Positions 1 to 60,945 of a stretch of 64,000 nucleotides of DNA are shown here, piece after piece. Both the position numbers and the translations under genes were made by a program. The DNA is from Silvibacterium bohemicum (lineage in GTDB: Bacteria; Acidobacteriota; Terriglobia; Terriglobales; Acidobacteriaceae), in the NCBI RefSeq assembly GCF_001006305.1, contig NZ_LBHJ01000019.1:374017-438016 (forward strand), in the 5' to 3' direction. The notes under the pieces were generated by a model. That model made no database searches. It worked only from the letters and a program-made list of their open reading frames with translations, and was not told the origin of the DNA. The number at the start of each line of letters is the position of its first letter. Position 1 is the stretch's first letter.

Positions 1-1245
1 GAGGTCGTAGAGCTGCGCGCCGCTTCCGGAAAGCATCGCCTCCACGCGCGCCGCGGGGTAGCTCAGATCCAGCGGCAGATAGCAGCCACCGGCTTTGATC
101 ACACCCAGCATGGCCGCCAACATCTCCGCCCCGCGCTCCATGCGCAGCGCCACCAAGCCACCGCGCTGCAGACCCGAGGCCCGAAGATGCCGCGCAATCT
201 GATTGGCACGCGCTTTCAGCTCTCCGTAACTGACACGCTCTTCGCCGCTCTCCACTGCCAACGCCAACGGATTGCGTCGCACCTGCGCTTCGAACAGCCC
301 TGCCAGCGTGCCTTGCGGGCGCGAACGACGATCACCGTTCCACACCTCAAGCAGATTTCGCCGCTCCGCCTCATCAATCAGCTCCAGCTGGTGGAGACGC
401 GTCTCAGGATGCTTCGATGCGCTCTCCAAAACACGCTCATACCAGCGAGCTATCCGCTCCGCTGTCTCACGATCGAAGAGATCCTCGCTGTACTCCAACC
501 CGCCAGCCAATCCCAATGCCTCGCCGCCTGAGCCCCGGCGCTCCCACATGCCCAAGGACAAATCGAATTTCGCAACATTCATAGAGACAGGTTCGGGCCG
601 CACCACCAAACCGCGCATCTCGAGCTCACCGCCTGGCGTATTCTGCAAAGCGATCATGACCTGGAAGAGCGGGTGGCGCGCCAAGGAGCGGTCCGGGGCC
701 AGTGCTTCGACCACCCGCTCGAAGGGAACGTCCTGATGGCTGTACGCCTCCAGGTTGAAGCGGCGCACACGCTGCACCAGCTCCACAAAATCCGGATCGC
801 CGCTCACGTCCGTGCGCAGAACCAGCGTGTTCACGAAGAAGCCGATTAGATCTTCAAGCGCTCGCTCGCCACGCCCTGCCACCGGGCTTCCCAGAGCTAT
901 CTCATCCTCCGACCCCAGGCGCGACAGCAGCGCTGCAAGACCCGCCTGCAACACCATGAACAGGCTCGCGCCTGTGCTTCGCGCCACCTCCACCAGTCGC
1001 TCGTGCACCGCCGCGCTGACGCTTAGCCCTACCGTCCCGCCACGGTAGCTTGGAACCGACGGACGTGCTCGGTCCACAGGCAACCGAAGCTCTTCCGGCA
1101 ACGCTGCTAGTGCGCCACGCCAATACGACAGCTGCCGCTCCAGCTCACTCTCCGCGTCACCCTCCCGGCCCAGCAGCTCCCGCTGCCACACGCTGTAGTC
1201 GGCATATTGCACGCCGAGTGGCTCGTACTTCGGCTCACTGCCTCG
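1..1245 (-). repeat. Near-identical C/A segment, copy in module 16 (continues off window)
   Basis: Aligns at constant offset 27335 to 27336-28580. It covers the C-terminal lobe of the C domain, the C-A linker and the start of the A domain. One patch near 555-650 is divergent. The right border lies just after the C-domain HHxxxDG motif. Confidence 0.85.
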
Positions 1246-1735
1246 ACTCCGAGCCGCGTAGGCGATATTCAGATCCTTCGCAAGCGGTCCCATCGACCAT
1301 CCGTCGCCCGCGATGTGATGCATCACGATGAGCAGGATGTGGAGATTACTCTCCAGCTGGAACAGCCACGTCCGCAGCGGAGTTTCCCAGCTCAGATCGA
1401 AAGGGGTGCTCGCTGCTTCTGCCAGCCTCGCGCTCAGATCAGCCTCATCGACCTGCTCCCGGATGAGCTTGAAACCACATTGCGCGGATAACAGGATCTG
1501 TTGATGCGGTATTCCCTCCAGTTCCACGAAGATAGTCCGCAGGCTTTCGTGGCGCGTGATCAAGTCCTGAAGTGCTTGCTCGAGCGCGCCGGCATTGAGC
1601 TCGCCTTCCAGCCGCAGCGCCGCAGGTATGTTGTACGTTCCGTTCGGGCCTTCCATTCGATCGAGGAACCACAAACGCTGCTGTGCATAGGACAGCGGTA
1701 TTCTTTCCGGCCTCGACTGCTTCACGAGCGGTGCG
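1..1735 (-). other. Module 16: C and start of A, truncated by window edge
   Basis: Complete LCL-type C domain ([10 protein letters not shown]) and the first part of an A domain up to just before core A3. The specificity pocket is not in the window. Because the visible A segment is nearly identical to module 9, an Ile-type pocket is the first guess. Confidence 0.75.
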
Positions 1736-4700
1736 CGCGCGCGGGCCCCGATGTGGAGCCGAAGAGCGAGCTCGGCGACCGTTGCAGCTTCAAACAAGGC
1801 GCGGATGGGAAGCTCCACTCCCAGGTTTACGCGAATGCGGCTTACCAGCCGGGTCGCCAGCAGAGAATGGCCGCCGAGCCGGAAGAAGTTATCGTCCAGA
1901 CCCACCCGGTCGAGTTTCAAAACTTCGGCGAAGATGCCGCACAGGATTTCCTCTTCAGGTGTACGCGGGGCGCGATAGCCAGTAACGCGCCGTTCGGGCG
2001 CCGGGAGAGCTTTGGTGTCGAGTTTGCCATTCGCCGTCAGAGGGATTTCGTCCAAGATAACGTAGACGGCTGGAACCATATATTCCGGCAACCTCTCGTT
2101 CAGCCCCTGACGGAGCGTTTCCTCTTCGAGTGTTGAGCCGTGTCTCGCCTTCACATAGGCAACTAACTGTTTGCCGCCGGGACCGGCCTCCCGAACCAGC
2201 ACCACGGCCTGTTCAACCGCCGGCAAACTGCGCAGGCATGCTTCGATCTCTCCCGGCTCAATCCGGAAACCGCGTATCTTCACCTGCCCATCGGCTCGTC
2301 CCAGAAATTCGAGCTCTCCGTTTGCATTCCAACGCACGCGATCGCCGGTGCGGTACATCCGCTCCCCGGAGTGAGCGCTCCACGGATCTGCGACGAAGCG
2401 TTCCGCGCTCTGAGCAGGGCGCCGCTGGTAACCGCGAGCCAAGCCGGCCCCGGCAACATAGAGTTCACCTGCGACGCCAACCGGAACCGGCTCCAGCCAG
2501 TCGTCGAGAACGTAGACGCGGGTATTTCCGACCGGTCGTCCGATGGGCACCGTTACATCTTCTGCGCCTTCTACCAAATGCCAGGTGCTGAACGTCGTAT
2601 TTTCCGTGGGGCCGTAGACGTGGAGCAAACGGCGAGGCGCACCGTGCGCCAGCACCTCGCGCACGCAGGCGGGGTCCACCGCTTCGCCTCCGAACAACAA
2701 GTCGCGCAGCCCGGAGAAAGCTTGCGGTGTCTCCCGCGCGATCTGGTTGAACAGGGCTGTGGTCAGAAAGAGCGAATCGATTCTAAGTTCTCGCAGCGCG
2801 CGGCTTATCGCATCGGTCGAGAGTGTTGTCTCTCTCGGAAGAATGACGACGCAACCTCCATTCAGCAGAGCGCCCCAGATCTCGAAGGTAGCCGCGTCAA
2901 ACGAGGTATTGGCCACATGCGCGATCCGGTCTTCGGGCTTGAGATCGACGTATCCGCTGTCGTGCACTAACCGGATGATCGCCTTATGAGGAATGGCGAT
3001 GCCCTTGGGCTTGCCAGTCGATCCGGAGGTGTACATCACATAAGCCAGGTCCTCTGAACTTGCCGGCTCCCCAAGGTTATCTTCGTTCGTGCTCATGCGC
3101 TCGAGATCGAGCACACTTGCGCCACTATCGCGCAGCATTGAGTCCACACGCTGCCGGGGATAAGCGGGGTCCAGCGGCAGATAAGCCATCCCAGCTTTCA
3201 CGATCGCGAGGATGGCGACGATCATCTTCGCACTGCGTTCCAGGGGCACCGCCACCAGGCCGCCGCGTTCGACACCCGACTCCTTGAGCTTCCAGGCCAG
3301 CCGATTGGCGCGCGCATTCAACTCACCGTAGGTGAGAGTGACACCGTCGCCCTCCACCGCGGCCGCATGCGGACTTCGCTCCACCTGCTCTTCGAAGAGC
3401 CCAGAGAGTGTTCCTGCCGGCTGTAAGCGCCGTTCTCCGTTGAAGCCTTTGAGGATCTTCGACCGATCCGTTGCGCTTACTAAGTTGATGCTATGCAGGC
3501 GCAACGCAGGCTCTTCTGCCACCTCTGCGAGCAGTCGCTCATACCAACCAGCGATCGCTTCCGCCGTCGCGGGCTCGAACAAGTCGCGGCTGTACTCCAG
3601 CTCTCCCTCGATACCCTCGGCCTGCCCGGATACTCCGCGGCGCTCCCACAATGTAAAGGTGAGATCGAACTTCGCAACATCCATGGCTATCGGCTGCGGG
3701 AGCAATACCAATCCTGGCATCTGCAGCTCTGCTTGCGGCGTGTTCTGCAGAGCCAACATCACTTGAAATAGAGGATGCCTGGCCAGCGAACGCTTCGGCC
3801 TGAGCGCTTCCACTACGCGCTCGAACGGCACATCCTGATGTCCGTATGCGTCGAGATCGAAAGCTTTGACGCGTTCGAGCAGATCCAGAAAGCGAGGATC
3901 ACCGCTGACATCCGTTCGCAGCACCAACGTATTTACCAAGAAACCGACTAACTCTTCTAATGCCTGCTCGCCGCGCGCGGCTATCGGAGTTCCGATGGGG
4001 ATATCTTCGCCGCAGCCCAGCCGTGTGAGCAAAGCCGCCAGTGCAGCCTGGAGAACCATGAACAGGCTGGCTCCGCTGCTCTGCGTCAACTCCAGCAGAC
4101 CACGATGCACTTGCTGGCCGATCCGCAAAGGTACTCTGCCGCCGCGATAGCTCATGACAGCCGGGCGCAGATGATCAACAGGAAGACTTAATTCTTCCGG
4201 AAGACCAGCCAACCGGCTGCGCCAGAAGTTGAGTTGCTGCGAGAGCAGGCTCTGCGGATCCTCTTCGGCGCCCAGCAAATTCCGCTGCCACAAGGTATAG
4301 TCGGCATACTGCACCGGCAGGGCTGCAAAGCCGGGAGCTTTCCCACTCAGCCTCGCCTCATAAGCACGTCTCAAATCCGCCGCCAGCAGGCCCATGGACC
4401 AACCGTCGCCAGCGATGTGGTGTACCACCAGCAGTAAGACATGGCGATCCGCGGCGCTGCGGAAGAGCCACGCCCGCAGCGGAGTTTCACGGCTCAGATC
4501 GATTGCACTGCCGGCGGCCTCTGCCAGACGCGAGCCCAGTTGGGCTTCGCTGGTCTCTTCGCGGAGGAAACGGGGACGGCCTTCATCCCCAGGTAGGATT
4601 TGTTGCCAAGGCGTTCCGTCCGCTTCTACAAAAATCGTGCGCAGGCTTTCGTGCCTCGCGCATACGTCGGCCATCGCCTCCTCGAGCGCGTCAGCATCGA

Positions 4701-7700
4701 GTTCGCCTTCCAATCGCAGGGCCACCACGATGTTGTAGTTTCCCTGCAGCTCCTCCATGCGATGGAGAAACCACAGGCGCTGCTGCGCGTAAGACAGCGG
4801 GATTCGCGCCGGTCTCAGCTGCGGAACCAGGGCTTCCCGTATCCCATCGCCAGCGCGGAGAATGAGGGCAAGTTTCGCCACCGTAGGAGCCTCGAAGACA
4901 GCGCGGATCGGCAACTCGGTTCGCCAGGCAGCACGAATACGGCTTATCAGCCTCATGGCCAGCAGCGAATGGCCGCCCAGGTGAAAGAAGTTATCGTCCA
5001 ATCCGACGCGATCCAGCTTCAAGACTTCCGCAAAGATGGCGCAAAGCATCTGTTGTGCGGGCGTGTGCGGTTCGCGGTAACCGGCAGAATGTCTCTGGGG
5101 AGCGGGGAGGGCCTTGCGGTCGAGTTTGCCGTTCGCGGTCAACGGCATCTCCGCAAGCGCCATATACACGGATGGAACCATGTAGTCGGGCAGCTTCCTG
5201 CTCAACTCGCGATGCAACGCAGCGTCGTCCAGCACCGCTCCTGCTGCGGCCTTCATGTATGCCACCAGCTGCTTGCCGCCGGCCGCCGAGTGGTGAACCA
5301 GCACCGCAGCCTGTTCTATGCCCGGCAGCAGATGAAGCTCCGCTTCGATCTCTCCCGGCTCGATACGGAATCCTCGAATCTTTACCTGTTGATCGGCGCG
5401 GCCAAGAAATTCCAGTCTTCCGTCGGCACGCCACTTCACTCGATCGCCGGTGCGGTAGATCCGTTCTCCGGGTTCGCCATAGGGGTTTGCTACAAAGCGT
5501 TCCGCGGTTTGCGCAGCCTGATTGCGGTAGCCGCGAGCCAGGCCCAATCCTGCCGCGTAGAGTTCGCCGATAACGCCGACAGGTACAGGATCGAGCCAGC
5601 TATCGAGAACATACACGCGTGTATGTCCGATGGGCCGCCCGATCGGAATCGTGTGCCCCTCTAGAATCTCGATACGATGGCACGCGGTGAAAGTGGTGTT
5701 CTCCGTCGGACCGTAGCCATTGATCACCGCGCATGCGGGGTGCGCCGATCGGAATTTATTCACATGCTCAACCGAAAGAACATCTCCGCCAGCGAGCAAC
5801 TGCTTCACTTCATGCAGCCCCGGCAATGCCTGTTCCACCACCTGCTGGAACAAGCCGGCGGTCAGCCATAGGGTGTCGACCTCGCGCTGTGACACGATGG
5901 CGGTAATTTCCTCAGGCTTGAGAACTCCCGGCGGCGCCATGACCACGCAGCCGCCATTCAGCAGCGCGCCCCAGAGTTCAAACGTGGCAGCATCGAAGCT
6001 CAATGGCGCGAGGTGCAGCACCCGGGACGAGCTTCCCAGCTCTACGTAGTCTGCATTGCAGACGAGACGAATCACTGCGATCTGCGGTACAAGAACACCC
6101 TTGGGGCGACCCGTCGAACCCGACGTGTAATTCACATAAGCTGGCCGCTGCGGCTCGACCGGCACACACGGATTTTGCTCATCCGATTCGCCCGTCATGT
6201 CGAGGCTGGTAATCGTGAGAGCGATACCGGCATCTGCCGCGAGTGCTTCGCGGCGCGCCTGAGGCAATTCCGGATCAATCGGCACATAGCAGGCACCCGC
6301 TTTGACGATGCCGAGAAGGGCCACCACCAGCTCCAGAGAGCGTTCGACGCAAATCGCCACGAGGGATTCCGGACCAATGCCCGCCGCGATCAGGCGATGC
6401 GCGACAAAGTTTGCGCGGCCATTCAGTTCGGCATACGTGAGGCCTTGGTCGCCGAAGACCACAGCCGGAGCGTCCGGATTGTTCAGCACATGCCGTTCAA
6501 AGAACTCGGCCATAGTGCCTTCCGGCAGCGGCCGTGGCGACGGATTGAACTCTTCGAGCAACCGCTTGCGTTCAGCGCTGTCCAGCAACTCCATGCTTTG
6601 CAGCGAAGCGTCGGGATAGTCCAACGCACGGTTCAGGAAGCGGATCAGATGCTTTACGATCGACGACGCCTCGGTTTCGCTGAATCGATCCGGATCGTAG
6701 TCCAGGCGAATGCGCAGCTCGTCTCCGGGCAGCACGACGAGAGTCAGAGGATAGTGGGCTGCATCGTGCCCCTCGACGCCGACGATGCGAAGATCCTCCA
6801 ACGAGCCCGCAACTGCCACGCCATCGATCGGATAGTTTTCAAATACGAAGAGTGTGTTGAATAGCTCTTCCTGGCCTGCCGCTCGTTGGATCGCTGCGAG
6901 TCCGACATATTGATAGGCCATCAGGATCGACTGGCTCTCCTGAATCTGGTCCAGCAGCATCGCGATGGATTGCCCGGCGTGAAGCTTCACTCGCAGCGGC
7001 AGCGTGTTGATGAACAGCCCTACCATGCTTTCGACACCAGGCAGATCGGCGGGACGCCCGGACACGGCTACACCAAAAGCCACATCATCGCGATTCGTGA
7101 GGCGGCCCAGCAATAACGACCACATTCCCTGGAGCAAAACGCTCTGGGTGAGGCCTCTTTCGCGCGCGAAAGCCTGCAGGCGTGCGGTCGACGCTCTGTC
7201 GAGGACGCCGTCGCAACGCTTTGGCGGCGCGGGCCGCGCCGACGACGCGCCTAACTGTGCCGGTCCTTCGTAATCTGCGAGATGGTCACGCCAGGCATCG
7301 AGAGCGGCTTTTTCATCCTGCTCGGCCAGCCATGCGAGATAGTCGCGGTACGGCCGCACATGCGGAAGCGCACCGGTATCTCCGGCGGTCCGATATAACG
7401 CGAGCAGCTCGCCGATCAATGTCGGCATCGACCAGCCATCCAGCAAAAGATGATGTGCGGTGAAGAGCAGAAGATTCCGCTGCGGCCCGAGCCACAGGAG
7501 CTGACAGCGCAGCAGTGGGCCGCCGGCAAGAGAGAAGCGATCTTTGCGATCGCTCGCGAGGAATTCTTCGCGGTCTGGAAGTCCGGCCAGAGTTTCCTCC
7601 CGCCACGTCAGACCCACACTTCGCGCGATGATCTGGACAGGACGCGGTAGTCCTTCATGCCGGATAACTGCGCGGAGATTTCCGTGACGGCGGCTTAAAG

Positions 7701-10700
7701 CCTCGACGGCGCGGCGCATTCGTCCCGCGTCGAGATCGCCCTCAAACTCCAGACCGAACTGCACCATGTAAATGTCTGACGCGCCCTGGTCATACAGCGC
7801 ATGGAATAACAGGCCCTCCTGAAGTGGCGACAGGGGCAGAATCTCTTCAAGGCCCGGATAGGCTGCTTCGAACTCGTCGATCTGCTCTTGCGACAAATCA
7901 ACTAATGGGAAGTCGGATGGCGTGTGTCCTTCCGCACCCTTTTCGACTTCCGTGGCGAGATCGCGCAGCGCTTGCTCCCAGGCGCCAGCGAACTCTTGCA
8001 CCGCCGGCTCAGACAGGTGCCTACCTGCCCATGTCCAGGTAGCAGAAAGCAACGGTCCCGCGGGACTGTCCACGGTGACGGCGTTGACCTCAAGGAAATG
8101 GGCGAGAGGCATCGCTGGGTCAGCGCCCGTGCCGAGATTGAACTCCTGGGAGAGACGTTCTGTTCCGAAACGGCCGAGGTAGTTGAAGCCTATCTGGACG
8201 GGCTCGAATTCTTTCAGGCGCGCGGCTGCGGTGGGATGAAGATGGCGTAGTAATCCATAGCCCAATCCGTTGCGGGGAATGGCTCTCAGCTGCTCCTTCG
8301 TTTTCTTGAGCGCGGATGCTGCGCTTCCTCCGGAGGCATGAAGGCTCACCGGATACAGAGTCGTGAACCAGCCAACCGTGCGCGAGAGATCGAAGCCCTC
8401 ATTCTTCGACTCGCGCCCATGGCCTTCGACATTGATCAGGATGCTTCCCCCCATCGCCCTCGCCAGAGCGGAGAGCAGGATGTCATTCATGCCGGCGTGA
8501 AAGGCCGCCGGTATTCGCGAAAGCAAAGCAGAGGTCAACTCGGCGCTGAATACATAGTGCAGATGGCCTGCGCTCGCATAGGTATCGTGGCTCGGATCGA
8601 GCGTGCTACCCGGAAGCAACGGCTTGCCGTTTTTTAGGATGCCTTCCCAGAACGGCAGCTCGGCCTCCGTGGCCTCACTCATGACCTCTCGATTCAGGTG
8701 ACGCGCCCATGTTCTGTAGGGCGTTTGCACAGCATCGAGGCTGGTTTCGCGCCATGCCGACTCAAGATCCGGCAGCAGGATTCGCCAGGACACTCCGTCG
8801 ACGGCAAGATGGTGGATGGTGAGAAACAGATACTCCTGTTCTCCACCGGTAAACCGCACTGCCTGGAAGATGCGCCCAGAGGCGGGATCGAGTCTCCGTT
8901 CTGCCTCTGTCGCGATCTGGGCAGCTTCGGGCCCGGCGGCGCTGGTATCCACACGCGTCCAGCAGCTCTCGGCGCGCACTGCGCCACGAGGCTCGATGCG
9001 CAACCGCATCCCGTCTTCCACTCTCAGCCGCAGCACATCATGCGTATCGATCAGCGCCTGGAGAGCCTGCTGCATCTGCTGTTGAGTCAATCCAGCAGGA
9101 ACCATCAAGGTCACGGACTGGCTGAAACGATTCCAAGCCCCGCCTCGCTCCCACATCCAACGCATGATGGGCGTAGCTTCGAACACTCCTATTGCGTCTT
9201 CGCCATCCCGCAAGGCGTGTGCCCGGCTCTCCGCTTTTTGCGCCACTGCGGCCAGCGCCTCTACCGTCTGCCGCTGGAAGACATCGCGCGGCGTCAGCGA
9301 GAGTCCGGCACGGCGCGCCCGGCTCACCAGTTGGATCGACACAATGCTGTCGCCACCCAGCCGGAAGAAGTTATCTCCTATCCCGACCTGTTCCAGCCCC
9401 AGCACTTCCCTGAAGACTTCACAGAGAATCTCCTCCGCCCAAGTTCGCGGCCGCCGATAACCCTCTGCGCGATCGCGCGGAGCCGGGAGCGCCTTTCGAT
9501 CGATCTTGCCGTTCGGCATCATCGGCAACGCGTTCAACATCTCGATCGCGGCTGGAATCAGATAGTCAGGCAGTCGATCACGCAAGCGACGACGCAGCAC
9601 CTCCTGATCAAGCGTTGCGCCTTCCGCGGCTACGACGTATGCCACCAGTTGCTTACCCTCGCGGAGATCGACGGCGGCGAGAGCGACATCTGGGAGGTCT
9701 TTGAGTGCGGCTTCGATCTCACCGGGCTCAATGCGATAGCCGCGTATCTTCATCTGTTGATCGGCGCGGCCCAGAAACTCCAGGCTGCCATCCGGCTTCC
9801 AGCGCGCCCTGTCGCCGGTCCGGTACATCAGCGCTCCACGCTGGTAGGGATTCGCTACAAAACGCTCCGCCGTCAGCGCCGCACGCCCCAGATAGCCGCG
9901 CGCCAGATTTGCCCCCGACACATAGAGCTCTCCCGCCACACCCAATGGCACAGGTTCAAGGTTGTCATCTAGCAAATACAGCCGCGTATTCGCGATCGGA
10001 CGGCCGATCGGCACGGCGCCCGTCTCCGATATCTCCGCAGCGCATGCATGATGCGCCACCTGCACCGTCGTCTCCGTCGGACCGTACAGGTTCACCAGCG
10101 GCACGCCCCAGCTCTGCTCCACTCTGCGCGCTAGTTGATTGGAGAGAGCCTCGCCGCCGGAAAAGATCATCCGCAAACCCCTCGGCTTAGGCGTATCCGA
10201 CGCGCATACCGCCTCCAACAGCGTCGGCACGAACTGTGCAACGGTCACCTCCGCACGCTCCATCGCTGCATGCAGAGCCACAGGATCACGCGAGACCTCC
10301 GAACCAACGAGACACACACGAGCTCCGCTAAGAAGGGGCAAAAACAACTCCCACACCGCCGCATCGAAGCTCATCGAGGTGCGGAACAACACCGTGTCTC
10401 GCTCGTCTACCGGATACGCCGCGCACATCCACTCCATGTGGTTCAGCAGCGCGCGGTGCTCCACCACCACACCCTTCGGCTTGCCCATCGAGCCCGACGT
10501 GTAGATCACGTAGGCCGCATGCGAGGCCTGCAGTCTACTTATCCGATCCTCATCCGACGGGTTATGCTCCGCGCTGCCCAAGCCGTCGCGATCCAGACTG
10601 GCCTCATCCAGATCAACCACATCGATCGATGCCGGTAGATTCCGACGCTGTCCCGCGCGGCTCAGCACCACAGAGACTCCTTCCAGCATCTGCTGCAGGC

Positions 10701-19900: not shown

Positions 19901-20164
19901 TCACGCGCAGATTGGGATGCCGCAGCAGCAAGGCTTCCGTTGCGCTGCGCATTCGTCTTGCGTCGAGCGGACCTTCAAGCTCCATGACGAACTGCACGGT
20001 GTATACGTCCGGACTGTCGGCATCGTACAGCGCATGGAAGAGCAAACCTTCCTGCAGCGGCGAAAGAGGCAGGACATCTTCTATGTCTGAGTGCATCTCC
20101 TCGAGCGCTTCCACCTGCTCCTGAGCTAGATCCACCAACGGGAAGTCCGACGGAGTATGACCGC
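16977..20164 (-). other. Module 11: C-A-PCP, Pro-like pocket
   Basis: The pocket reads D-V-Q-F-H-A-H-V-A. Asp-Val-Gln, Ala301 and His322 are the signature of Pro pockets (DVQLIAHVVK), but His at 299 and Ala at 331 are divergent. Pro or a substituted proline is likely. The PCP is LGGHS and an acidic docking tail follows. Confidence 0.65.
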
Positions 20165-48800: not shown

Positions 48801-49022
48801 AATATGCGCCGGTCTTTCCTCTGCCGACAAAGGAGGACGCGCTGCTGTGCCCTGCCACTGCCGCTGTAGAAGCAGGCGAATGTCGTCTTTCTGAACGCTT
48901 AGCTCAGCCCAGATTTCTTCGCTGAGGGTCCCGCGAGCCGCGCTGACACGAACGCGTTCCCCTTCTAACCAGACCTTGGCGCCGACCGCAGAGATTTGAG
49001 CGAGTAGTTCAGGCGCCGTCAC
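36840..49022 (-). CDS. NRPS subunit B (modules 4-6, two N-methylating)
   Basis: 4060-residue NRPS. Order: TubC-type docking domain (residues 1-55; [10 protein letters not shown] strand), C-A-nMT-PCP (M4), C-A-nMT-PCP (M5), C-A-PCP (M6). The methyltransferases interrupt the A domains after core A8 and carry the SAM-binding motif GCGTGLLL near residues 1056 and 2514. C motifs HHIVSDG or HHIASDG lie near 209, 1667 and 3127. PCPs (LGGHS) are near 1472, 2932 and 3994. I choose GTG 49022, which overlaps the TGA of subunit A as GTGA, has GGAGGAG 8 nt upstream, and begins exactly at the docking domain. The in-frame GTG at 49301 would add 93 residues of junk translated from subunit A. The C terminus is a basic tail ([11 protein letters not shown]). 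Confidence 0.95.
36858..36864 (-). promoter_or_regulatory. Ribosome binding site of subunit C
   Basis: AAGGAGG, 10 nt before ATG 36847, inside the 3' end of subunit B. Confidence 0.8.
36900..40095 (-). other. Module 6: C-A-PCP, Gln-like
   Basis: The pocket reads D-A-W-Q-F-G-L-V-Q, close to the Gln code DAWQFGLIDK. The A core motif is YTSGSMG with Met. The A-domain DNA is almost identical to that of module 13. The PCP is LGGHS and the subunit ends about 40 residues after the carrier fold. Confidence 0.75.
37378..38782 (-). repeat. Near-identical A-domain segment, copy in module 6
   Basis: Direct-repeat partner of 9665-11069. Same length and orientation; long stretches are identical, with scattered substitutions. 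Confidence 0.85.
40105..44460 (-). other. Module 5: C-A-nMT-PCP, branched-chain-like
   Basis: The pocket reads D-A-F-F-L-G-A-T-F, one position away from the Ile-type code of modules 9 and 15 (Val322 to Ala). The methyltransferase carries [10 protein letters not shown]. Predicted residue: N-methyl Ile, Val or Leu. Confidence 0.7.
44470..49022 (-). other. Module 4: docking-C-A-nMT-PCP, Asn-like
   Basis: The pocket reads D-A-T-K-V-G-E-V-G, closest to published Asn codes (DLTKxGEVGK). The methyltransferase has [10 protein letters not shown] and retains the long C-terminal region seen in modules 1 and 5. Predicted residue: N-methyl-Asn or a close analogue. Confidence 0.7.
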
Positions 49023-52000
49023 AGATATCTCTCCTCCAATTCGTGCTCCTCCGCGTTCTGATCTTGCGGAGTCAACAGCTCTGACTGCGGGGCTGATTCG
49101 CTGCGCAGCGCCTGACAGATCACGGACAGCCTGGAGACCGTTCCCGAGAGAAATATGTCGCGCAAGGAAACTTCCAGACCCAGCGCAGTACGGATTCTGC
49201 TCACCAGCTGGGTGGCCATGAGCGAATGTCCCCCCAGTTCGAAGAAACCGTCGTCGAGTCCCACCCGCTTCAGTCCGAGCACACCCGCGAAGAGCTCGCA
49301 CAGCGTCTGCTCATCCGGGGTTCGTGGAGCACGGTAGTTGTCTTGCCGTGTTTCGGCGTTTTCCGGAGAAGGCAGCGCGCCGCGATCGATTTTTCCATTG
49401 GGTGTGAGCGGCCATGCGGCAAGCGGAAGGAGCACGGACGGGACCATGTATTCGGGGAGACGCTGCCGCAGATAGTCGTGTAGCGACAGCTCCAGATCCT
49501 CTTCCAGGGCACGGCGGGAGCGCGCGATGAAATAGCCTACGAGCTGTTTGCGCTCGCCCTCCTGATGCACTTTCACCAGCGCGTCCTGCACCTGGGCATG
49601 GCCTTTGAGCACAGCCTCCACTTCGCCCGGCTCCACGCGGAAACCGCGCAGCTTCACCTGATCATCGACTCGGCCTACAAACTCCAGCGTTCCCTCGGAA
49701 CTCCAACGCGCCCGGTCACCGGTGCGATACATCCGTGAACCCGCCTCTTCCGCATACGGATTCGCCACGAATGACGACGCAGTCAATCCCGCACGGTTCA
49801 GATATCCGCGCGCCAGACCGGCTCCGCTTACATACAGCTCCGCCGTTACTCCCACCGGCACCAGATTCAAAACCTCGTCCAGCACATACAGCTGCGTATT
49901 CCCTACCGCTCGACCGATCGGCACGGACAGCTCTTCGTCCGCAACGCTTTTCACGTCATGCCACGTAGCCAAGGTGGTGTTCTCGGTGGGGCCGTAGGCA
50001 TTGATCACCCGGCATCGCGGGTTTGCCGCGACGACTTCGCGCACACAGTGCGGATCCGCGACATCCCCGCCCAGGAACAGCGTCTTCAGCTCCGTGAAGC
50101 TGGCCGGAGCTTCACGCGCCATTTCATTGAAGAGCGCTGTGGTCAGCAGCATGGTGTCGATGCGGTGCTCGCGCAAGGCTCTGGCCAGCGCTGGAGGAGA
50201 AAGGGTTGTTTCGCGCGACAGGATGGTGAGGCTCCCCCCGCTCAACAGCGCTCCCCAGATCTCAAACGGCGCGGCATCGAAGGACGCATTTGCCACCTGG
50301 GCAATCCGGTCGCCCGGCAACCACTCCAAGTAGCCACAATCCTGCACCAGCCGGATGACGCCACCCTGCGTGATTCCAACCCCCTTCGGCTTGCCGGTCG
50401 AGCCCGAAGTGAACATGACGTAGGCCAGGTCGCTCAAGCCCATCGCTTCGCTGGCGTTCTCGTCAGCAGCGCGGGCAGTTCCGATCTCATCCACGAACAT
50501 CTCATCTACGAACACGGGCTTCGCATCGCTCCCGGACAATGCGGCGAGATCCGACGTCGTCAGCAGCAGTTCCGCTTCGCACTCGCTGATCATCCACATC
50601 AATCGTGAGTTCGGATAAGCGAGGTCCAGAGGCACATAAGCTCCCCCGGCCTTGATGATCCCGAGCATGGCGACGATCATCTCCGGTCCGCGCTCCATCC
50701 GGATCGCAGCCGCATCGCCTCGCTTCAATCCCAGATGCCGGAGATGATGGGCCACGCGGTTGGCCCGCGCATTGAGCTCTCTATACGTCAGCCGCTGTGT
50801 TCCGCATGTGACCGCCGGCGCGTCGGGATGCTCTCTGGCGTGGCGCTCAAAGAGCCCTGCCAAGGTGCCCTGGGGCTTCTCCCGCCGCGCGCCGTTGAAT
50901 TGTTCGAGCAACTCCCGGCGTTCCGTCTCGCTCAGGATCTGAAGCCGGCTGGGGACCAGATCCGCAGAGTGCGGCACAGCTTCCAGCAGTGCAACCAGAT
51001 GTCTGGTCATCTGCTCGATGAGCCGGAGATCGAGCCGGTCCCGCTTGTAGAGCCAGAAGAGATCGAGTCCCCCCTCACGCTCCAGCGCGTGAACCTCCAG
51101 GTCATACCGCGCACCGAGGGAATCAGGAACGATGCGCTCGAGTTCCAGGCCCTCGAGGCGCATCGGATCTCCGGGCGCGCTCTGCAGCGCGAAAACCACC
51201 TGGAACACCGGTGTATGGCTCAGGCTGCGCTCGATGGAGAGATGATCCACCACCCGCTCGAACGGAATGTCCTGGTGCTGATAGGAGTCGAGGGTCATGT
51301 TCCTGACGCTCGCCAGCAAGTCCGTGAACGATTCGGCCGGATTCACCCGAACCCGCATCGCAAGTGAATTCACGAAGAAGCCGATCATCTGCTCCACATG
51401 CGTATCGCGGCGATTGGCGATGGGCGACCCCACCACGATGTCTTCCTGACCGGAATAACGCGACATGACCGCAAAAAAAGCGGACAGCAGCGTCATGAAC
51501 AAGGTGCTTTGATGGTCCCGGCTGAAGTTTTCGAGCTGCGCCGTCAGGCCGGAGGGAACAAAGATGTGGACTTTTCCGGCTTCAAGCAGCGGCGTTTCCG
51601 GCGTGCGCAAGGCTGAAGGCAATTCCAGGCGCTCCGGAATCCCTGCCAGTTGCCGCTTCCAGTAGTCGAGTCCCGACTGCTCCGCCGCTGCATCCAGCCG
51701 CTTCTGCTCCCACAACGCAAAATCCGCGAACTGCATGGCGAGCGGAGGCAGCGGATTCTGCTTGCCGGCGCAGAAGGCCTCGTACAAAACCGCCAGTTCG
51801 CGATTGAAAACCCCGATTGACCAGCCATCGAAGACGATGTGGTGAAAGCTGCGGAGCAAAACATGGTCTCGCTCGCTGAGCTTCAGCAATCTCACCCGTA
51901 GGAGCGGACCGGACGCCAGGTTGAAGGGCTCGGTTCTTTCCTTGCGGAGTGCCGCGGCAAGCGTTCGATCCTTTACCTCGCCATCCAATGTGGACAGGTC

Positions 52001-55000
52001 CTCAAGAGCGATCCGGACCCTTGGCAATGGCCAGATGACCTGAGCCGGCACACCGTCAACCATGGCAAAACAGGTGCGCAGAACCTCATGCCGCTCCTCG
52101 ATGCACCGAATGGCTCGCTCCAGCGCGGACAGATTCAGGTCGCCGCGCATGCGGATCGAGTCCGGCATGTTGTATTCAGGGCTGTCGCCCTGCAATTGGT
52201 CGATGAACCACAGTCGCTGTTGCGCAAATGACAGCGGGATAAGCAGCGGCCGCGTCTGGCGAAGCAGAGGCTTGCCTGCAGGACGTTGATCGCGCAGGCG
52301 GTCGGCTAACTGCGCCACGGTCGGCGCTTCGAACACCGTTCGAACCGGCAAATCCACTCTCAGCGCGCGCCGTATCCGGCTCGCTACTTGTGTCGCCAGC
52401 AGAGAGTGGCCGCCCAGATGGAAGAAGTTATCGTCAATCCCTACGCGCGGGAGCTTGAGGACTTCGGCGAAAACATCGCAAAGCACCTGTTCCTCGGGAG
52501 TGCGCGCCGCTCGATACGAGCCGGTCTTCCACACAGGCGCGGGCAGCGCGCGCCGGTCCAGCTTGAGATTGGGGGTGCGCGGCAGGCTGTCCAGAATGAG
52601 AATGCCCGCGGGAACCATATAGTCCGGCAGCCGTTCGGCAATCGCATTCCGCAGCGCCTCCGTATCCGGAGTTCCCCCCGGAGCCGCCACCACGTATGCC
52701 ACCAGGTGCTGGCCGGTGGAATCCTCTCCCACCGCGACCGCCGCCTGGAATACCGCAGGGTCAGCCAGCAGGATGGACTCGACTTCGCCGAGTTCGAGGC
52801 GAATTCCGCGAATCTTTACCTGATCGTCGGCTCGTCCCAGGTACTCGATCTCGCCATCCTGCCGCCAGCGGGCAAGATCGCCGGTGCGATACATGCGATC
52901 GCCCGGTTCAGAGGCATGCGGGTTAGCCACGAAGCGTTCGGCTGTAAGTCCCGGCCGCCTGAGATAACCTCTCGCCACTCCTGCGCCGGCAACGTACAAC
53001 TCACCGGCGATTCCGATGGACACCCGCGACAACGAAGAATCGAGAATGTATACCCGGCAATTGGAGATCGCCGGTCCGATGCTGACCATCGCCGGACCTG
53101 ATTCCGCCAACATGTTTCGAGGTATGGTGGCCACCGTCGCATCTGCGGAGACTTCTGTTGATCCATAGAGGTTGTAGAGGGTCGCCGCCGGGAATTTTGC
53201 ATAGAAATCTTCGGCAAGGCGAATGTTGAGTGCTTCTCCGCTCGAACCCCAATGATCGACGCGCAGCTGGTGCAGTTTCTCCGCATCCTGCTGCAGAATG
53301 GCTTCAATGAGTGAAGGAACCAGGATGATTCGGGTCACTCGCTCGCGAATCAGCAGATCGACGAACTTCTCCACGTCGTGAACCTGCTCATGACTCAGCA
53401 TCACCAGCGGCACGCCTCGGAAGAGCGGTGCGAAGATCTCCGCGAGATGATCCACAAAGCCCAGCGTGGTCCTGTTGCAGCAAACATCGGAGGCTTGAAA
53501 GGGATGTTCCCTCCACTCCCACTCGAGGCGGTTCACCACACCGCGAGTCGTGCCCACGACGCCTTTGGGACGACCACTGGAACCGGAGGTGTAAAGGACA
53601 TACGCCGGGTGTTGCTGCAGCAGGAGAGCCGTGCGATCGGAGTTGCTTGGGTTATGCGTCAGCTCCCGCGCCAGGACGGTTTCCATCTCGGGAGCATCGA
53701 GATCGATCCTCACCGCGATATCCGGCAGCTTGCTGCGCAGTGCACGCACACTTAGCACGCACACCGGAGCCGCGTCTTCGAGCATGTACGCAAGACGCGC
53801 CACCGGATAGTCCGGATCGAGCGGAAGATACGCCGCGCCCGCTTTGAGAACTCCCAGCATCGCAGCCAGCATGGTGAAAGAGCGGTCGATGCACAGCCCA
53901 ACGAGACTCTCCGGTCCGATGCCGCGACCAATGAGGTAGTTCGCCAGGCGATTCGCTCGCGTATTGAGTTCGCGATAGGTCAGCCGGTCTTCGCCGTAGA
54001 CAACGGCAACGCTGTCCGGAGTCAGAGCCACCTGCGCCTCGAAGAGCTCCGGCAATGTCTTCCGGGAGATCGAGTGCGTGGCGCCATGAAAGCCGTCGAG
54101 CTGCCGCTGTTCGTCGCTCCCCAGGCTTTCGAGCTGCCACAGCGCGCGGTCCGGATCTTCCGCCGCGCCTTCGAGCAGCCGCACGAATTGCTCCGCGATC
54201 GCCTGACCCCGCCGTTCACCGAAGTGTGCCGCGTCGAAGTCGACTCGCAGATACAACTGTTGCCCGGGAACTACGGTCAGGCTCAAGGGGTGATGGTTGG
54301 CCGATGAAATCTCAACCCCAACCACCCGAACTCCCGCCGCCTCCTGCGCAAACGTTGTGGTGGATTCCGGATAGTTCTCGAAGACCACCAGAGTGTCGAA
54401 CAGATCGGCAAGTCCAGCCGCTCGCTGGATCTCCGCCAGCCCGAGATGCTGATGCCCGAGAAGATCGCCTTGCTTTGTCTGTATTTCCGCGCACAGGGCC
54501 GACAAGCTGTCTCCCGGCCTCAGTTTTGCCCGCAGCGGAAGTGCGTTAAGGAACATCCCTACCATCTGTTCCACTCCCGCCAGCTCCGCGGGACGGCCTG
54601 AAACCACGATCCCGAAGACTATGTCGTCCGCACCGGTCAGCCGCCCCAGCAGCACGGCCCACAATCCCTGCAAGATTGTGTTCAGCGTCAAACCGCGATC
54701 CCGCGCGGTCTCCTGCAACCGCGCCGTCAGCTCGAGCGGCAGCTCTTTTTCCCATCGCATCGGCGAGGACTTCGAAGAAATTCCGCTCGCCACCTTCGTA
54801 GGGCTTGCGAGACCGGCCAGATACTCCTGCCATACGTTGAGCGCCGCGGGGCGATCCTGTTTTGCGAGCCATTCAAAGTACACACGATACGGACGGACCT
54901 GGGGCAGTGCTCGAGCATCGCCACCGTTGGCATACAAAGACATCAATTCACCGAACAGCAGGGGCATCGACCAGCCGTCCAGCAGCAGATGATGATGAGT

Positions 55001-58000
55001 CAGCACCAGCAGCCAGCGCTCCGCTGCCATCTTCACCAGCGTGAAGCGCAGCAGTTGTTCTCTGACGTCGAGGCGCACGCTGCGGTCTGAATCGAGGAAA
55101 CCATTGACCCCGGACTTTTCAGGCCACTCGATCTCACGCCATGCCAGAGGCACGCCGCGGGGAATGACCTGGACGGGGTGCGGCAGGCCTCCATGTGCTA
55201 TCACCGCGCGCAGATTCGAGTGGCGGTCAACAAGGGCTTCCGCCGCGCGGCGCATCCCCATTGCATCGAGCGGCCCTTCGAGCTCCAATGCGAACTGCAC
55301 GGTGTAAACATCGGGTCCGCTCTCGTCGTAGAGCGCCCGGAAAAGAAATCCCTCCTGCAATGACGACAGGGGTAGAACTTCCTCGATATCGGAATAGGCG
55401 TCTTTCAGCTCTTCGAGCTGCTCTTGTGTCAGCGCTACCAGATCGAAGCCGGAAAGCGAGTGATCGCCAGACCTCTGATTTTTCGGCTCGTCGGCCGGAG
55501 TTCCCGACATTCGTTCGGCGGCTCGGGCGTTCGCTTCGCGCTCCGCTGCTGCAAGCTCGAGAGCCGTGAGCTCTCTCGCCGTCAGAGCCAGGCTTTCGAC
55601 GGTTGGCTGCTGAAAGACATCCCGCGGAGAGAACTCCAATCCTGCGCGGCGCGCACGACCGACCAATTGGATGGACAGAATACTGTCGCCGCCGAGACGG
55701 AAGAAGTTATCATCCAGCCCCACGTGGTCGAGCGAAAGCATCTCGGCAAATAACTGGCACAGGATCTTCTCCGCCTGCGTCCGCGGCTCGCGATAGTCTT
55801 TGCCTTCGCCTCCCATCCGCTCTGCTGCGCCGGGAATGGGCAGAGCTTTGTGGTCTAACTTGCCATTGGGAGTTACCGGCCACGCAGGAAGCACAACAAC
55901 AGTCGAGGGGACCATGTAATCCGGCAGGCGTTCCTGCAGGTAGCCCTGAAGTTCGCGTCCCAGTTCGCCTTCGACAGCCGCCTGTGAAGGCGCGTTGGCA
56001 AACTGCCGGTAGAACGATCGCTCTGCCACCGGCAATCTCTCGGCGGGATTCCATTGCGGGCGGAAAACGGCATCATAGATTCCGGATTTCTCAAATCCAC
56101 GCCAGCTCAGATCGACACAAAGCTGGTCGGCGAACTGAATGACCGCATCCGGATCTTCTCCCGGCAGGTTCGCGCACAGAGTCCGGAGCTTGCCTGCGGT
56201 TCCCAAGCCAGAGTTTGCAGAAAGCAGAGAACGCGCCGCTTCCACCGCTCCCGCGACACGTCCGTCAGGCACGCCGCGAAGTCCTGCACTCTCTGCAGGC
56301 TCGGAGGACAGCAACGATTCGACCGCCTCTCGCCAGTCGCCGCCTGCATCCCATCTCACCCAGAGATGAGGCTCCTCAATCTCTTCTTTTCGATCGCCGA
56401 CGTTTATCGTTACGTCGTAACGGAACCGGCTTAGTTCATTTTCGTAAGCACCCGCCTTCAGGGAAGCATCAACGCGTCCCAACTTGGTAGAGCGACGTGC
56501 CAACTCTCTGAACAGCTGCGGATCTAACACCAGTTCGTTTTCATGCCGCTGCTGATAAGTAACGCGCTGCCGCAGATCGGGCAATGAGGTCGTGACAGCC
56601 GCTTTGTGCATCTGCACAGAGGCATGATAAGCGCCCAGCAGTGGCAGGCTGCGCACGTCGCCGACGAAGATGTGGCCGCCTCGCCGGGTCACGCGCTCTG
56701 CCTCTCGCAGCACGTCGAGCAGATAACCCGCATCCGGGAAATACTGCACGATCGAATTCAGGATGAGCAGGTCGACGCTGTCATCTTCAAGGAAGCTCAG
56801 ATCGTGCGCCATGCCCTGCCGCAGCTCCACATGCTCCAGATCCGGGCGAGTTACGAGGTATCTGCCCACCTTCGCGAGGGCTTCTGCGGAAAAATCCAAC
56901 CCCGTGTAGCTCTGGCAATCACCCGCGAGCCGAGTCAGCAGCAACCCGGTTCCGCAGCCGACCTCGACGACGCGCGAGGGATTCAGGCGCTTCAGCCGGA
57001 CCACGGTTTCGTCGACCCAGATCTGCATTTCGCGTGGAGGGATAGGCTTGCCCGTGTAACTGCTGAGCCAGCCCGTGATGTCGAAATCGCCGCCTACATC
57101 CACACCATCGGCGTACGTCGACTCGTAGAGCTCTCGCCAGCGTGTCACATGCGAGAGTCCCGCGCTCCTCCGCTCGGCATCCTCCTGCCGTGCAATCACA
57201 TAGGCCAGCAGCTGCCCGGAATTCTCGCCGGCGACGACCAGCGCCTCCCGCACCCGGTCATGTCCCAGTAATGCCGCCTCGATCTCGCCCGGCTCAATGC
57301 GAAAGCCGCGAATCTTCAACTGCTGGTCAGCGCGACCTGCGAATTCAAGCACGCCGTCTGAGCCCCAGCGAGCCATATCTCCGGTGCGATACATGCGTCC
57401 ACCCGGAGCCAGGCTGTGCGGGTCAGCCACAAAGCGATCGGCTGTCAGGCCGGGCCGGTTCAGGTATCCACGCGCGAGTCCCGCGCCTGCGATGTACAAC
57501 TCTCCAGCGATGCCGATCGGCACCGGCTGCAAAGCCTTATCGAGGAGATAGACGCGTGTGTTCCACACCGGTTTTCCGATGGGTGGAGTCTGTTTCCCAG
57601 ATAGGGGTTCGCTGATGGTCGCACAGACGGTCGATTCGGTGGGGCCGTAGGCATTGATCATCCTTCGCCCCGAAGACCAGAGCGCCGCCACCGCGGAAGA
57701 ACAGGCATCGCCGCCGACGATCAGGCATTCGAGCGGGATGTTCGCAGCATCCTCCAGGGTCGAAAGCACGACGGGAGGTAACAGTGCATGCGTTATCTTC
57801 TCGGCGATGAGCAGCCGGCGCAGAGCGTCGCCGGCGCGCGCATTTTCAGCAGGCACTACGAGCGTTCCCCCGCTCGTAAACGCCATGACCATCTCCCACA
57901 GAGAAGCGTCAAAGTTGAGCGACGCAAACTGCAATACCCGGGAATCCGAGTTGAGCCCCAAACTTCCAACCCGAAGCTCTGCCAGGCTGGAGATACCGGC

Positions 58001-59950
58001 ATGCGTCACAACTACGCCTTTGGGCACACCCGTCGATCCGGATGTGTAAATCACATAAGCAGGATGCTCGCAGCGTAACGGTGCGCATCGATCCTCATCG
58101 ACAGGATTCACATCGACACGATTCACATCGACACGATCGGCGACGGAAGGATCGACCAGCAGCACTTCCGTCTCAGGCGCATTCAAGACCATTCGCGGAA
58201 CATCGACCGGCAACTGTGATTGCTGTTCGCTGCTGGTAAGCACCAGTGCCGGCTTGGCGTCCTTTACCATCTGCAGTAGTCGCGCAGCCGGATAGTTGGA
58301 GTCGAGCGGCAGGTAAGCGGCTCCGGCTTTGAGCGCGGCCAGAATTGCTACGACCATATCCACCGACCTGGCGAGGCAGATGCCGACCAGAGACTCCGGA
58401 CCAACGCGCCGCCCGATGAGGAGATGGGCCAAACGATTGGCCCGCGCATTTAGTTCCGAATAAGTGAGGGTCTCGCGCTCGAATACAAGCGCGGGCGCGA
58501 GGGGATGACGTCGCACCTGTAGTTCGAAGAGTTCGGCAAGCGTGGCCTGGGGAAGATCGCGATACGTAGCATTGAAGTCATCCATCACCTGCCGTCGCGC
58601 AGATGGCAACAGCATCTCGATGCGATGCAAAGGAGCCGCATCGTCAGCTATGGCGATTTGTTCCAGCAGCCCGAGAAAATTCCGCTGATACTCTCCCAAT
58701 GCTGCCGCGGTATAGTGCTCAGGATTTCCGATGAACTCGATGCAGACATCCGAATCATCTCGCCGGTCATACACTGCGATCTGCAAGTCGTCGACCGACC
58801 AGTTCCCGATATTACGTGCGCGGCACTTACTCCCGGCAAAGGTAAAGTCATAACGGAACGGCATTACATTGACGATCGTGCCGTAGATTCCAGGGTCGGA
58901 GGGCCGCAAGCCGCAATCGTTCCTGAGATCTTCGAGCCGGTAGCGCTGATGAGCTGAGGCCTCCCGAAGGTCGTTCGCGGTTCGGCGTAGAAGATCGCCA
59001 AGCGTCTCATGCAAGGAAACGGTGGAACGGAATGGAACGGCGTTGGAGCAGAGAGCGACGACCCGGCGCATTTCATCCGTGGTCCGGCCCGATACTGCCA
59101 TGCCGAGCACCGCGTCGTTGACCCCGGCGAGACGGTGAAGATATACAGCCGCAGCAGCCATGATCGACGATGCAAGCCCAGCGCTCCGGCCGCCGCCGCG
59201 AGTGCGCAACGACTCAATCGTGGAGCGCGAGACCCACTCTACGCTGCGTAGAAACCGGCTCGATCGCGCCGGCAGCTTCCCTGAAATAGTGGCTGCCTCT
59301 GGCCGGTCCTCCAGATAGTTGCGCCAATAAGATCTGTCGAGCTCATAGCCGGAAGAAAGCTGATAGCTGCGGTCCGCGGCCAGCGGTTCGAGGCAGGATA
59401 GAAATCCCGCCGGTTCGACGGGGCGGCCCGCTGCGAGCGCGGAATAGATTTCCGCGACACGCCGCGCAATCATCGCGAGCCCGAAGCCATCGATGCAGAT
59501 GTGGTGGTAGCGCCCGTACCAGAGATACCGGTCCGCAGCGAGCCGGAGCAGAGCGTAGGAAAAAGGCGCTTCACCGCTAACATCGTGTCTCACCGCGATG
59601 TCGCGGCGCATCCATGCCTCTGCTGCCTCCGCCGGATCGGCCTCATCGCCGAAGTCGATGAAAGACATCGTCCAGACAGGGTCGCGTTCCAGATACTGGA
59701 CCGGGCCCTGAGCTGTATCTGAAATCCGCAGACGCAGGGTATCCGTATCCTGGACCATCCGGCGCAGTGATTGCTCGAACAGCGCAGGCGCCACAGGGCC
59801 AAAGATCTCTATGTACTCCGCGATTTGATAAGCGCAACGGCTTGCATCGAGAGCCGTCGCAGCCCAGACACCGCTTTGCGCAGCGGACAGCTTATATCTT
59901 TGTGGGATCGAACCCGGCGCAATAACTTCCCCGTTGACCGACGCTTTCAC
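49019..59950 (-). CDS. NRPS subunit A, chain-initiating (modules 1-3)
   Basis: 3643-residue NRPS, first of the assembly line. Order: C (HHICIDG near residue 152), A interrupted by an N-methyltransferase (VGCGTGLLL near 1001), PCP (LGGDS near 1422); C-A-PCP (LGGHS near 2515); C-A-PCP (LGGHS near 3573). The first C domain ([11 protein letters not shown]) resembles EntF-like or starter C domains rather than the internal LCL or DCL types here. With no loading A-PCP before it, a carboxylic-acid starter is inferred. The start is uncertain: GTG 59950 has GGGGG 6 nt upstream and leaves a short leader before the C domain; the longest frame begins at TTG 60040 with no ribosome site. The protein ends in an acidic tail ([10 protein letters not shown]), probably the docking partner of subunit B. 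Confidence 0.93.
49031..49037 (-). promoter_or_regulatory. Ribosome binding site of subunit B
   Basis: GGAGGAG, 8 nt before GTG 49022, inside the 3' end of subunit A. It decides this start against the upstream GTG at 49301. Confidence 0.8.
49090..52285 (-). other. Module 3: C-A-PCP
   Basis: LCL-type C (HHIVFDG). The pocket reads D-A-F-L-F-G-A-T-L, a relative of the branched-chain pockets of modules 5, 9 and 15 but with Phe at 299 and Leu at 331. The substrate is probably aliphatic and cannot be assigned. The PCP is LGGHS, followed by a linker and an acidic C-terminal tail. Confidence 0.7.
52290..55480 (-). other. Module 2: C-A-PCP, beta-amino-acid-type pocket
   Basis: The C domain ([10 protein letters not shown]) is of the type that follows E domains elsewhere in this locus. 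The A pocket reads V-D-A-I-G-S-L-A-D: Asp235 is replaced by Val and Asp appears at 236 and 331. This matches the beta-alanine code remembered for the bleomycin synthetase (VDWVISLADK) at six of nine variable positions. The A domain also has unusual motif variants YTSGSSG and YGSTEVSAD. Confidence 0.7.
55570..59950 (-). other. Module 1: C-A-nMT-PCP
   Basis: Pocket residues read by alignment to GrsA positions 235-331 are D-A-W-L-I-G-A-V-C plus the invariant Lys. This is close to the hydrophobic/aromatic pocket of GrsA (DAWTIAAxCK) but with Leu at 278 and Gly at 301, so Phe/Leu-like is only a guess. The N-methyltransferase is inserted between A8 and A9. The PCP has LGGDS, typical of carriers that serve an E domain, but none is present. 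Confidence 0.75.
58090..58134 (-). repeat. 15-bp tandem repeat in A domain of module 1
   Basis: Two perfect 15-bp units (58105-58119, 58120-58134) preceded by a degenerate third. They encode RVDVN-type repeats in the loop before core A3. Confidence 0.85.
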
Positions 59951-60620: not shown

Positions 60621-60923
60621 TTACTTAGCGGAGGTCTTGCGGGCGGTTGTTACTTCTGCTGACTCGCGAGCCGCTGTTTTGGTAGCCAGGCGGTCAACGA
60701 GGGTCCTGCCCGACACCGACTTCGAGAAGGAGTTGGCGCCAACCAAAACATATCCGAGCGGGCCAAAGACAGTAGCTGCTGCGAGACCGGCAACAGTGTG
60801 GAGAGCTGCTTCACCAATCTTTCTATCCAGGTAGAGGCTGAAGCCTGGGAGACTTAATTCCCCGGCACCTTTCACAACTTTTCCAAGAGTTTCTTCAGTT
60901 ACGAGGGGGGCGGCGGCTGACAT
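60621..60923 (-). CDS. Small glycine-rich hydrophobic protein, DUF6072-like
   Basis: 100-residue protein. The start at ATG 60923 is decided by a strong GGAGGA 7 nt upstream; the longer frame from 60947 would place its start upstream of that site. Residues about 30-60 hold an uninterrupted hydrophobic region (AALHTVAGLAAATVFGPLGYVLVGANS) followed by a short basic tail. The pattern of PGFSLYLD, a glycine-rich hydrophobic core and ANSFSKSVSGRTL recalls the DUF6072 family, from memory only. It lies 159 bp downstream of the ABC transporter gene on the same strand and may have its own promoter. Role unknown; a membrane-associated accessory to the transporter is a guess. Confidence 0.65.
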   Translation of the reverse strand: MSAAAPLVTEETLGKVVKGAGELSLPGFSLYLDRKIGEAALHTVAGLAAATVFGPLGYVLVGANSFSKSVSGRTLVDRLATKTAARESAEVTTARKTSAK

Positions 60924-60930
60924 GCTTGTT

Positions 60931-60936: not shown

Positions 60937-60945
60937 GGCAATAAC

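Follow-up and report, generated by a model that had tools for sequence, protein, structure and literature searches.

A probable lipopeptide assembly line of five synthetase genes in Silvibacterium bohemicum and the apparent loss of its first epimerisation domain

A stretch of 64,000 nucleotides from Silvibacterium bohemicum (contig NZ_LBHJ01000019.1, positions 374,017 to 438,016 of the forward strand) raises the question of whether the five adjoining synthetase genes that it carries constitute a complete hybrid nonribosomal peptide synthetase-polyketide synthase (NRPS-PKS) line, and of how such a line could work when its first module lacks the epimerisation (E) domain expected there. The whole stretch is referred to here as the window, and coordinates below 1 lie in the contig sequence adjoining its left edge. 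The machine is of an ordinary kind, large in size and with a product that is not recognised, and its real oddity is the apparently lost E domain. It is highly probable that the five genes form a complete, collinear line for a lipopeptide, with release by a thioesterase (TE) and with auxiliary proteins of three kinds, MbtH, type II TE and ABC exporter. A more tentative proposal is that the line lost the E domain of module 1 and works nonetheless, with the second condensation (C) domain, of the type that takes D donors, accepting an L (or an externally supplied D) N-acyl-N-methyl donor, and with the line having been rewired by the internal copying of units comprising a C-domain lobe, an adenylation (A) domain and half of a carrier (T) domain.

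Five coupled genes and their domains

The genes, designated gA to gE, are coupled and lie on the minus strand, and their frames, read together with the flanking contig, have synthesis proceed down the coordinates as gA-gB-gC-gD-gE. The likely coupled starts are GTG 49022 for gB, ATG 36847 for gC, GTG 33440 for gD and ATG 16980 for gE, overlapping the upstream stop codons by 4, 8, 4 and 4 nt respectively, which bears out the five overlapping collinear genes described in an earlier note on this DNA. The start codon of gA is uncertain, GTG at 59950 being one candidate in a frame that is open up to 60040. The earlier note had also proposed a line of 16 or more modules at 1-59950; the line is confirmed, but it is longer than was given, as the sequence below base 1 takes gE on to -6500, where it ends in a TE, and brings in the MbtH gene identified by Pfam (-6724..-6497) directly after it with an overlap of 4 nt. 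All five frames are open across some 66 kb. The features are as follows, with N-methyltransferase domains abbreviated as nMT and the PKS domains ketosynthase, acyltransferase, ketoreductase and acyl carrier protein as KS, AT, KR and ACP.

49019..59950, minus strand: gA, modules 1-3 (starter C, A, nMT, T / C, A, T / C, A, T), from frames, motifs, the nMT Pfam match and codes
58601..59908, minus strand: starter C domain in gA (best PDB match RzmA; Pfam Condensation)
36840..49022, minus strand: gB, a TubC_N docking domain and modules 4-6, C-A-nMT-T (Asn code), C-A-nMT-T (Val/Ile-like) and C-A-T (Gln-like)
33437..36847, minus strand: gC, module 7, C-A-T with an Ala code
16977..33440, minus strand: gD, KS-AT-KR-ACP and modules 8 (Ile code, E), 9 (Thr code, E) and 10 (Pro-like)
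29100..33410, minus strand: the PKS module KS-AT-KR-ACP within gD, its AT with HAFH (Pfam, motifs)
1..16980, continuing to -6500, minus strand: gE, TubC_N and modules 11 (Ala, E), 12 (Gln-like, E) and 13 (Val)
gE, continued, minus strand: modules 14 (Ile), 15 (Ile, split by a gap of 10 N at -9..0) and 16 (NMe-Val), then TE

In all, the line comprises 16 modules of NRPS type and a single PKS module; it has four E domains and four nMT domains, the latter in modules 1, 4, 5 and 16 (Pfam). The host assembly (6,459,122 bases in 25 contigs) contains 24 matches to PF00668, of which 20 fall within the line as 16 C and four E domains (E-values 1.3e-120 to 3.0e-30), the remainder being two in another synthetase on contig C1 and two weak fragments (43 and 31 bits). 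Sixteen A domains were read, and the A3, A7 and A10 lysine motifs and the T serine are present in all 16 NRPS modules, A10 of modules 2 and 10 having been read by eye. The PKS residues are intact (ACP serine, KS Cys/His/His, AT Ser, KR Tyr), as are the E motifs in all four E domains, and the TE shows its Ser, Asp and His contexts. Motif-bearing C-A-T modules, a terminal release domain and an embedded KS-AT-KR-ACP are what a collinear modular NRPS-PKS hybrid would have. Gene count, order, domains and nearly all of the substrate guesses of the earlier note were reproduced, and what it had left as a sixteenth residue and more can now be read as two modules, for Ile and NMe-Val, before the TE. As regards motifs, its clean order with no broken active sites also stands; what it had missed is the apparent loss of an E domain between modules 1 and 2, the scaffold gap that interrupts module 15 and the fact that parts of the line were recently copied within it.

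The C domain that follows the PKS module has HHIAGDE in place of HHxxxDG, and the suggestion that it is broken was set aside. Among 185 motif matches in the long frames of 49 reference loci from named genomes (L004-L052) the last position was G in 156, A in 10, E in six and another residue in 13, and four of the six E-type motifs belong to one Nonomuraea locus (HHIAGDEWS twice and HHIACDEWS twice). As the variant recurs in that locus, the domain here is probably not broken.

TubC_N docking domains open gB and gE and acidic tails close gA and gD, an arrangement that agrees with transfer from gA to gB and from gD to gE; the N-terminus of gC has no Pfam match, and the docking evidence covers neither gB to gC nor gC to gD. 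The G+C content of the line is 60.9%, compared with about 57% in its flanks.

The best PDB matches of the first C domain are RzmA (7c1k, 268.6 bits), the CdaPS1 starter C domain (4jn3, 177.1) and EntF (5ja1, 156.7). With RzmA and CdaPS1 ranking above EntF it falls into the starter class, an EntF-like identity was dropped, and the acyl start that the earlier note had queried is supported. One study indicates that in RzmA R148 keeps the acyl group at C2, that progressively shorter side chains at this position (R, M, L, V, A, G) take it from C2 to C8 or C10, and that Y138A combined with R148G lengthens it further (PMC7804268). The domain here shares a Tyr at the Y138 place and has Leu where RzmA has R148, which by analogy suggests a starter acyl group of short to medium length. 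No acyl ligase was found among the scanned neighbouring genes, and this is no obstacle since RzmA uses acyl-CoA.

The junction of modules 1 and 2

Where modules 8, 9, 11 and 12 have an E domain, module 1 has little more than a linker.

55468..55597, minus strand: T1-C2 junction, a linker of about 40 residues in place of the E domain of modules 8, 9, 11 and 12 (alignment)
54101..55414, minus strand: C domain of module 2 (C2), of the D-donor (DCL) type although module 1 lacks E (tree, WSxP signature, PDB matches)

Five carriers are of the pre-E type (GGDSI), those of modules 1, 8, 9, 11 and 12, but there are only four E domains. Five C domains are of the D type, those of modules 2, 9, 10, 12 and 13, and an E domain stands before each of them except that of module 2; in every other elongating module the type of C domain fits the presence or absence of an upstream E. 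By alignment the residues at the T1-C2 junction are unrelated to the whole E domain of the other four modules, while the E-to-C linker has been kept. T1 is 61-63% identical to T8 and T9, and C2 is 55-60% identical to the other D-type C domains.

These assignments were set against the same 49 loci, which were chosen by similarity to gA and are thus a non-random set, C domains with an unclear upstream context being excluded. The WSxP signature occurred in 20 of 24 C domains that follow an E and in none of 57 that do not. Among the reference C domains, the ten closest to C2 without exception follow an E, and the same holds for each of the four remaining D-type domains; the line's ten other elongating C domains cluster wholly with references that do not follow an E. 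Of 47 reference carriers that precede an E, 45 have DS[IV], and of 68 that precede a C domain, 61 have HS[LI]; as six of the remaining seven have DSI and one has DSL, the carrier motif alone is no proof.

There is no run of N at the junction, and no stand-alone E domain among the 24 PF00668 matches of the host genome. Dual C/E domains have an additional histidine motif close to where the C domain begins, and no HH occurs between gA residues 180 and 1681. Since T1 is of the pre-E type, the E-to-C linker persists and C2 is D-type, but no E is present, the E domain of module 1 appears to have been lost. Modules with both nMT and E occur in two reference loci (L023 and L024), which makes an ancestral A-nMT-T-E module plausible. 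A search of paper listings for described E-domain losses yielded nothing that was used as a precedent.

It follows that residue 1 is either L, admitted by a tolerant C2, or D by some other route. That it is still D, because A1 loads a D-amino acid made by a separate racemase or because T1 is epimerised in trans, is possible but doubtful. Both C2 and T1 retain D-side signatures, and for cyclosporin a D-amino acid from a separate racemase has been reported (PMC8949500), but no racemase was seen among the 10 neighbouring genes scanned with Pfam, a scan of these genes and not of the whole genome, and the lack of both a stand-alone E and a histidine pair near the start of C2 counts against this route. 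It is rather unlikely that the line is crippled, with C2 rejecting the L donor and little or no product being made. The E is missing between a pre-E carrier and a D-type C domain, and the genome offers no free-standing substitute; against this, all five genes have stayed open with their motifs intact, and donors that are both acylated by a starter C domain and N-methylated are unusual, so that the C domain could have adapted to them. If the line does work without the expected E, as is tentatively proposed here, it would allow the strictness of stereochemical gating by C domains to be tested directly.

Internal copies and the predicted peptide

The order and number of modules also have to be judged against the copying that has taken place within the line.

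26053..28664, minus strand: copy unit in module 8, from the HH motif of the C domain to the Ser of the T domain, with its partner in module 15 at -1222..1329 (DNA identity 89.5-93.4%)
37373..38782, minus strand: Gln A domain of module 6, sharing 91.3% identity with that of module 12 across 1410 nt
9660..11069, minus strand: Gln A domain of module 12, copy partner of module 6

Modules 8 and 15 are 93.4% identical over 1213 nt and 89.5% over 1332 nt, identity outside the unit falling to about 0.3-0.66; inside it one 100-nt step stands at 0.54 and another, at the gap, at 0.33. Both this pair of modules and the pair of Gln A domains stem from recent copying within the line and have sharp edges, and the A domains of modules 3 and 16 share a 408-nt piece that is 87.3% identical. 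Copies of 90-93% identity show natural cut and join points, in one case at the HH motif of the C domain and the Ser of the T domain and in the other around the A domain alone, and these bear on the rules of NRPS engineering. The 10 N lie in the A domain of module 15, against the left edge of the window. At this place 71 nt of module 8 stand against 11 nt of module 15. Because the difference of 60 nt preserves the frame, the real gap probably measures about 70 nt and stays in frame, though it may be longer.

That the assembly has misjoined or collapsed modules, giving a wrong order or number, is improbable. The gap does fall in a stretch about 90% identical to module 8, but it is the single run of N in the 124 kb read, the frames agree on both sides of it, and the difference in length from module 8 keeps the frame. 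The copies each differ by about 7-10% and have therefore not been collapsed, and the T1-C2 junction is itself free of N.

Substrate codes were taken at positions 235, 236, 239, 278, 299, 301, 322, 330 and 331.

Module 1 DAWLIGAVC; module 2 VDAIGSLAD; module 3 DAFLFGATL; module 4 DATKVGEVG
Module 5 DAFFLGATF; module 6 DAWQFGLVQ; module 7 DLFNNCLTY; module 8 DAFFLGVTF
Module 9 DFWSVGMVH; module 10 DVQFHAHVA; module 11 DLFNNALTY; module 12 DAWQFGLVQ
Module 13 DAFWLGGTF; modules 14 and 15 DAFFLGVTF; module 16 DAFWLGGTF

The DLFNN-type codes of modules 7 and 11 are taken to be for Ala, the VD-type code of module 2 for beta-Ala, and the HAFH of the AT presumably marks it as malonyl-type; since the KR is accompanied by neither a dehydratase nor an enoylreductase domain, the hydroxyl remains. 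For other codes published work gives DATKVGEVGK as Asn, itself a prediction there (PMC3547906), DAFFLGVTFK as Ile with some Val (PMC2533009), DAFWLGGTFK as Val (PMC9113097), DFWSVGMVHK as Thr (PMC12283262), DAWQFGLIDK, near to a code found here, as Gln (PMC2866473), and DVQ-type codes as Pro (PMC2866473 and PMC9113097). Taken together the codes suggest, for residues 1-7, short/medium acyl–NMe-hydrophobic/aromatic–beta-Ala–X3–NMe-Asn–NMe-Val/Ile–Gln–Ala-ketide(OH) and, for residues 8-16, D-Ile–D-Thr–Pro–D-Ala–D-Gln–Val–Ile–Ile–NMe-Val, with a predicted mass of about 1.80-1.95 kDa; masses were calculated for 36 variants.

The starter C domain would place the acyl group, drawn from acyl-CoA if RzmA is a guide, on an N-methylated hydrophobic or aromatic residue, and the sixteen NRPS modules and one ketide extension would then elongate the chain in gene order, Ala and malonyl with one reduction giving a 4-amino-3-hydroxypentanoyl unit with a residue mass of 115.063. 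The terminal TE would release the chain, perhaps as a lactone via Thr9, and the MbtH protein, type II TE and exporter would serve the line. With its D residues, N-methyl groups and statine-like unit, the predicted product would be well suited to secretion and to resisting proteases.

Several points weigh against a complete and working line with this product. The line is known here from its genes alone, the mismatch between modules 1 and 2 may leave it slow or dead, and with a gap in module 15 the count of 17 modules is a minimum. No printed support for the Ala and beta-Ala readings was found in the literature searched, the code of module 3 matched no printed code, and that of module 1 came only as near as DAWCIGAVCK, which differs by one letter and is assigned to hydrophobic residues and Phe. 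The Gln (DAWQFGLVQ) and Pro (DVQFHAHVA) codes are likewise not identical to printed ones.

Neighbouring genes, relatives and known systems

Upstream of gA lie three genes on the same strand.

60621..60947, minus strand: small DUF6072 gene between exporter and gA (Pfam)
61083..63173, minus strand: ABC exporter (ABC_membrane and ABC_tran, HMA_2-like N-terminus; Pfam), which likely exports the product
63395..64000, running to 64246, minus strand: type II TE (Pfam)

At -15346..-12329 there is a gene for a fusion of 1005 residues, a pyridoxal-dependent decarboxylase with TPR repeats and a C-terminus that looks ATP-grasp-like by eye, which could be a putative supplier of beta-alanine for module 2. 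Between it and the line (-11318..-8180) a gene for a type 2A encapsulin shell (SrpI-like, PF19307) overlaps one for a class-V, cysteine desulfurase-like aminotransferase, whose long proline/alanine-rich N-terminus makes it a likely encapsulin cargo. Close relatives occur in three congeners (G001, G006 and G008), and in G008 (contig C68) a different synthetase cluster lies on the opposite side of the encapsulin genes. The host has a second, smaller NRPS-PKS cluster on contig C1 (860911-870487), and as frame pairs of similar size occur in five congeners (G001, G002, G003, G006 and G008) it looks like the genus's own conserved cluster.

By rpoB comparison, in which 7 of 9 references gave a match, the host stands closest to the Acidobacteriota, with 67.7% identity over 1000 residues to an Acidobacteriota metagenome-assembled genome, 55.8% over 923 to an Acidobacteria one, 55.2% over 649 to Pseudanabaena and at most 50.7% to the rest. 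No orthologous line was found in eight congeners, in 395 other genomes of the phylum (with the PKS region as probe) or in one genome for each of 84,980 species (with gA as probe), and in what was searched the line is therefore an orphan, which supports the earlier note's word 'unfamiliar' as far as these searches reach. PF00668 occurs in 19 of 60 relatives besides the host, with 0 to 6 matches in the eight congeners and a maximum of 10 in any genome; absence from the congeners is weak evidence since three of them are 72-75% complete, in 260-440 contigs. The PKS probe answers in 392 of 396 genomes, two first-look candidates being scored per genome, and because any ketosynthase matches it was judged by identity and length only; its best match in the other genomes of the phylum is 47% identical. 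The gA scan, which may omit records of the host's own or very near genomes, gave 49 loci with best-segment identities of 27-54%, and no more than 41% where most of gA is covered. None of the eight congeners had close relatives of both flanks (encapsulin on the left, MFS on the right) on one contig that would reveal an empty site, the two being on different contigs in G008.

Given these low identities, and text searches of the open-access literature with the codes and with N-methyl-asparagine that returned no matching peptide, it is very unlikely that the cluster belongs to an already described peptide that has gone unrecognised here. Koshikamide and other sponge peptides were considered as candidates and nothing matched, the word koshikamide being absent from PMC12858407. 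What the locus offers is a large lipopeptide line of unrecognised order from a phylum with little-known products and, should it be true that the line works after losing an E domain, a natural case of domain removal combined with exchange-unit edges like those used in NRPS engineering.

Among known systems, a synthetase of 3721 residues in the Acidobacteriota metagenome-assembled genome CP_BM_RX_R9_16 (L006) is in part 41% identical to gA and is arranged as C-A-T(GGDSI)-E-Cd-A-T-Cl-A-T. It has an E but no nMT that could be found by motif, its pocket regions differ by eye, and on those regions it was rejected as an ortholog of gA with E intact. RzmA, the rhizomide synthetase (PDB 7c1h/7c1k), is the nearest structural relative of the first C domain, but the remaining module order of that synthetase is unrelated to this line. 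Teixobactin starts with N-methyl-D-Phe, for which no canonical E is known at that point, but it has another sequence and no PKS step, and PDB matches to Txo1/Txo2 are weak. In the PDB, the C domain of module 2 comes closest to those of McyB (microcystin), BacC (bacitracin), SrfA-C (surfactin) and TycB (tyrocidine), which take D donors from an upstream module with an E domain, whereas module 2 of the S. bohemicum line retains the same type of C domain with no E upstream of it.

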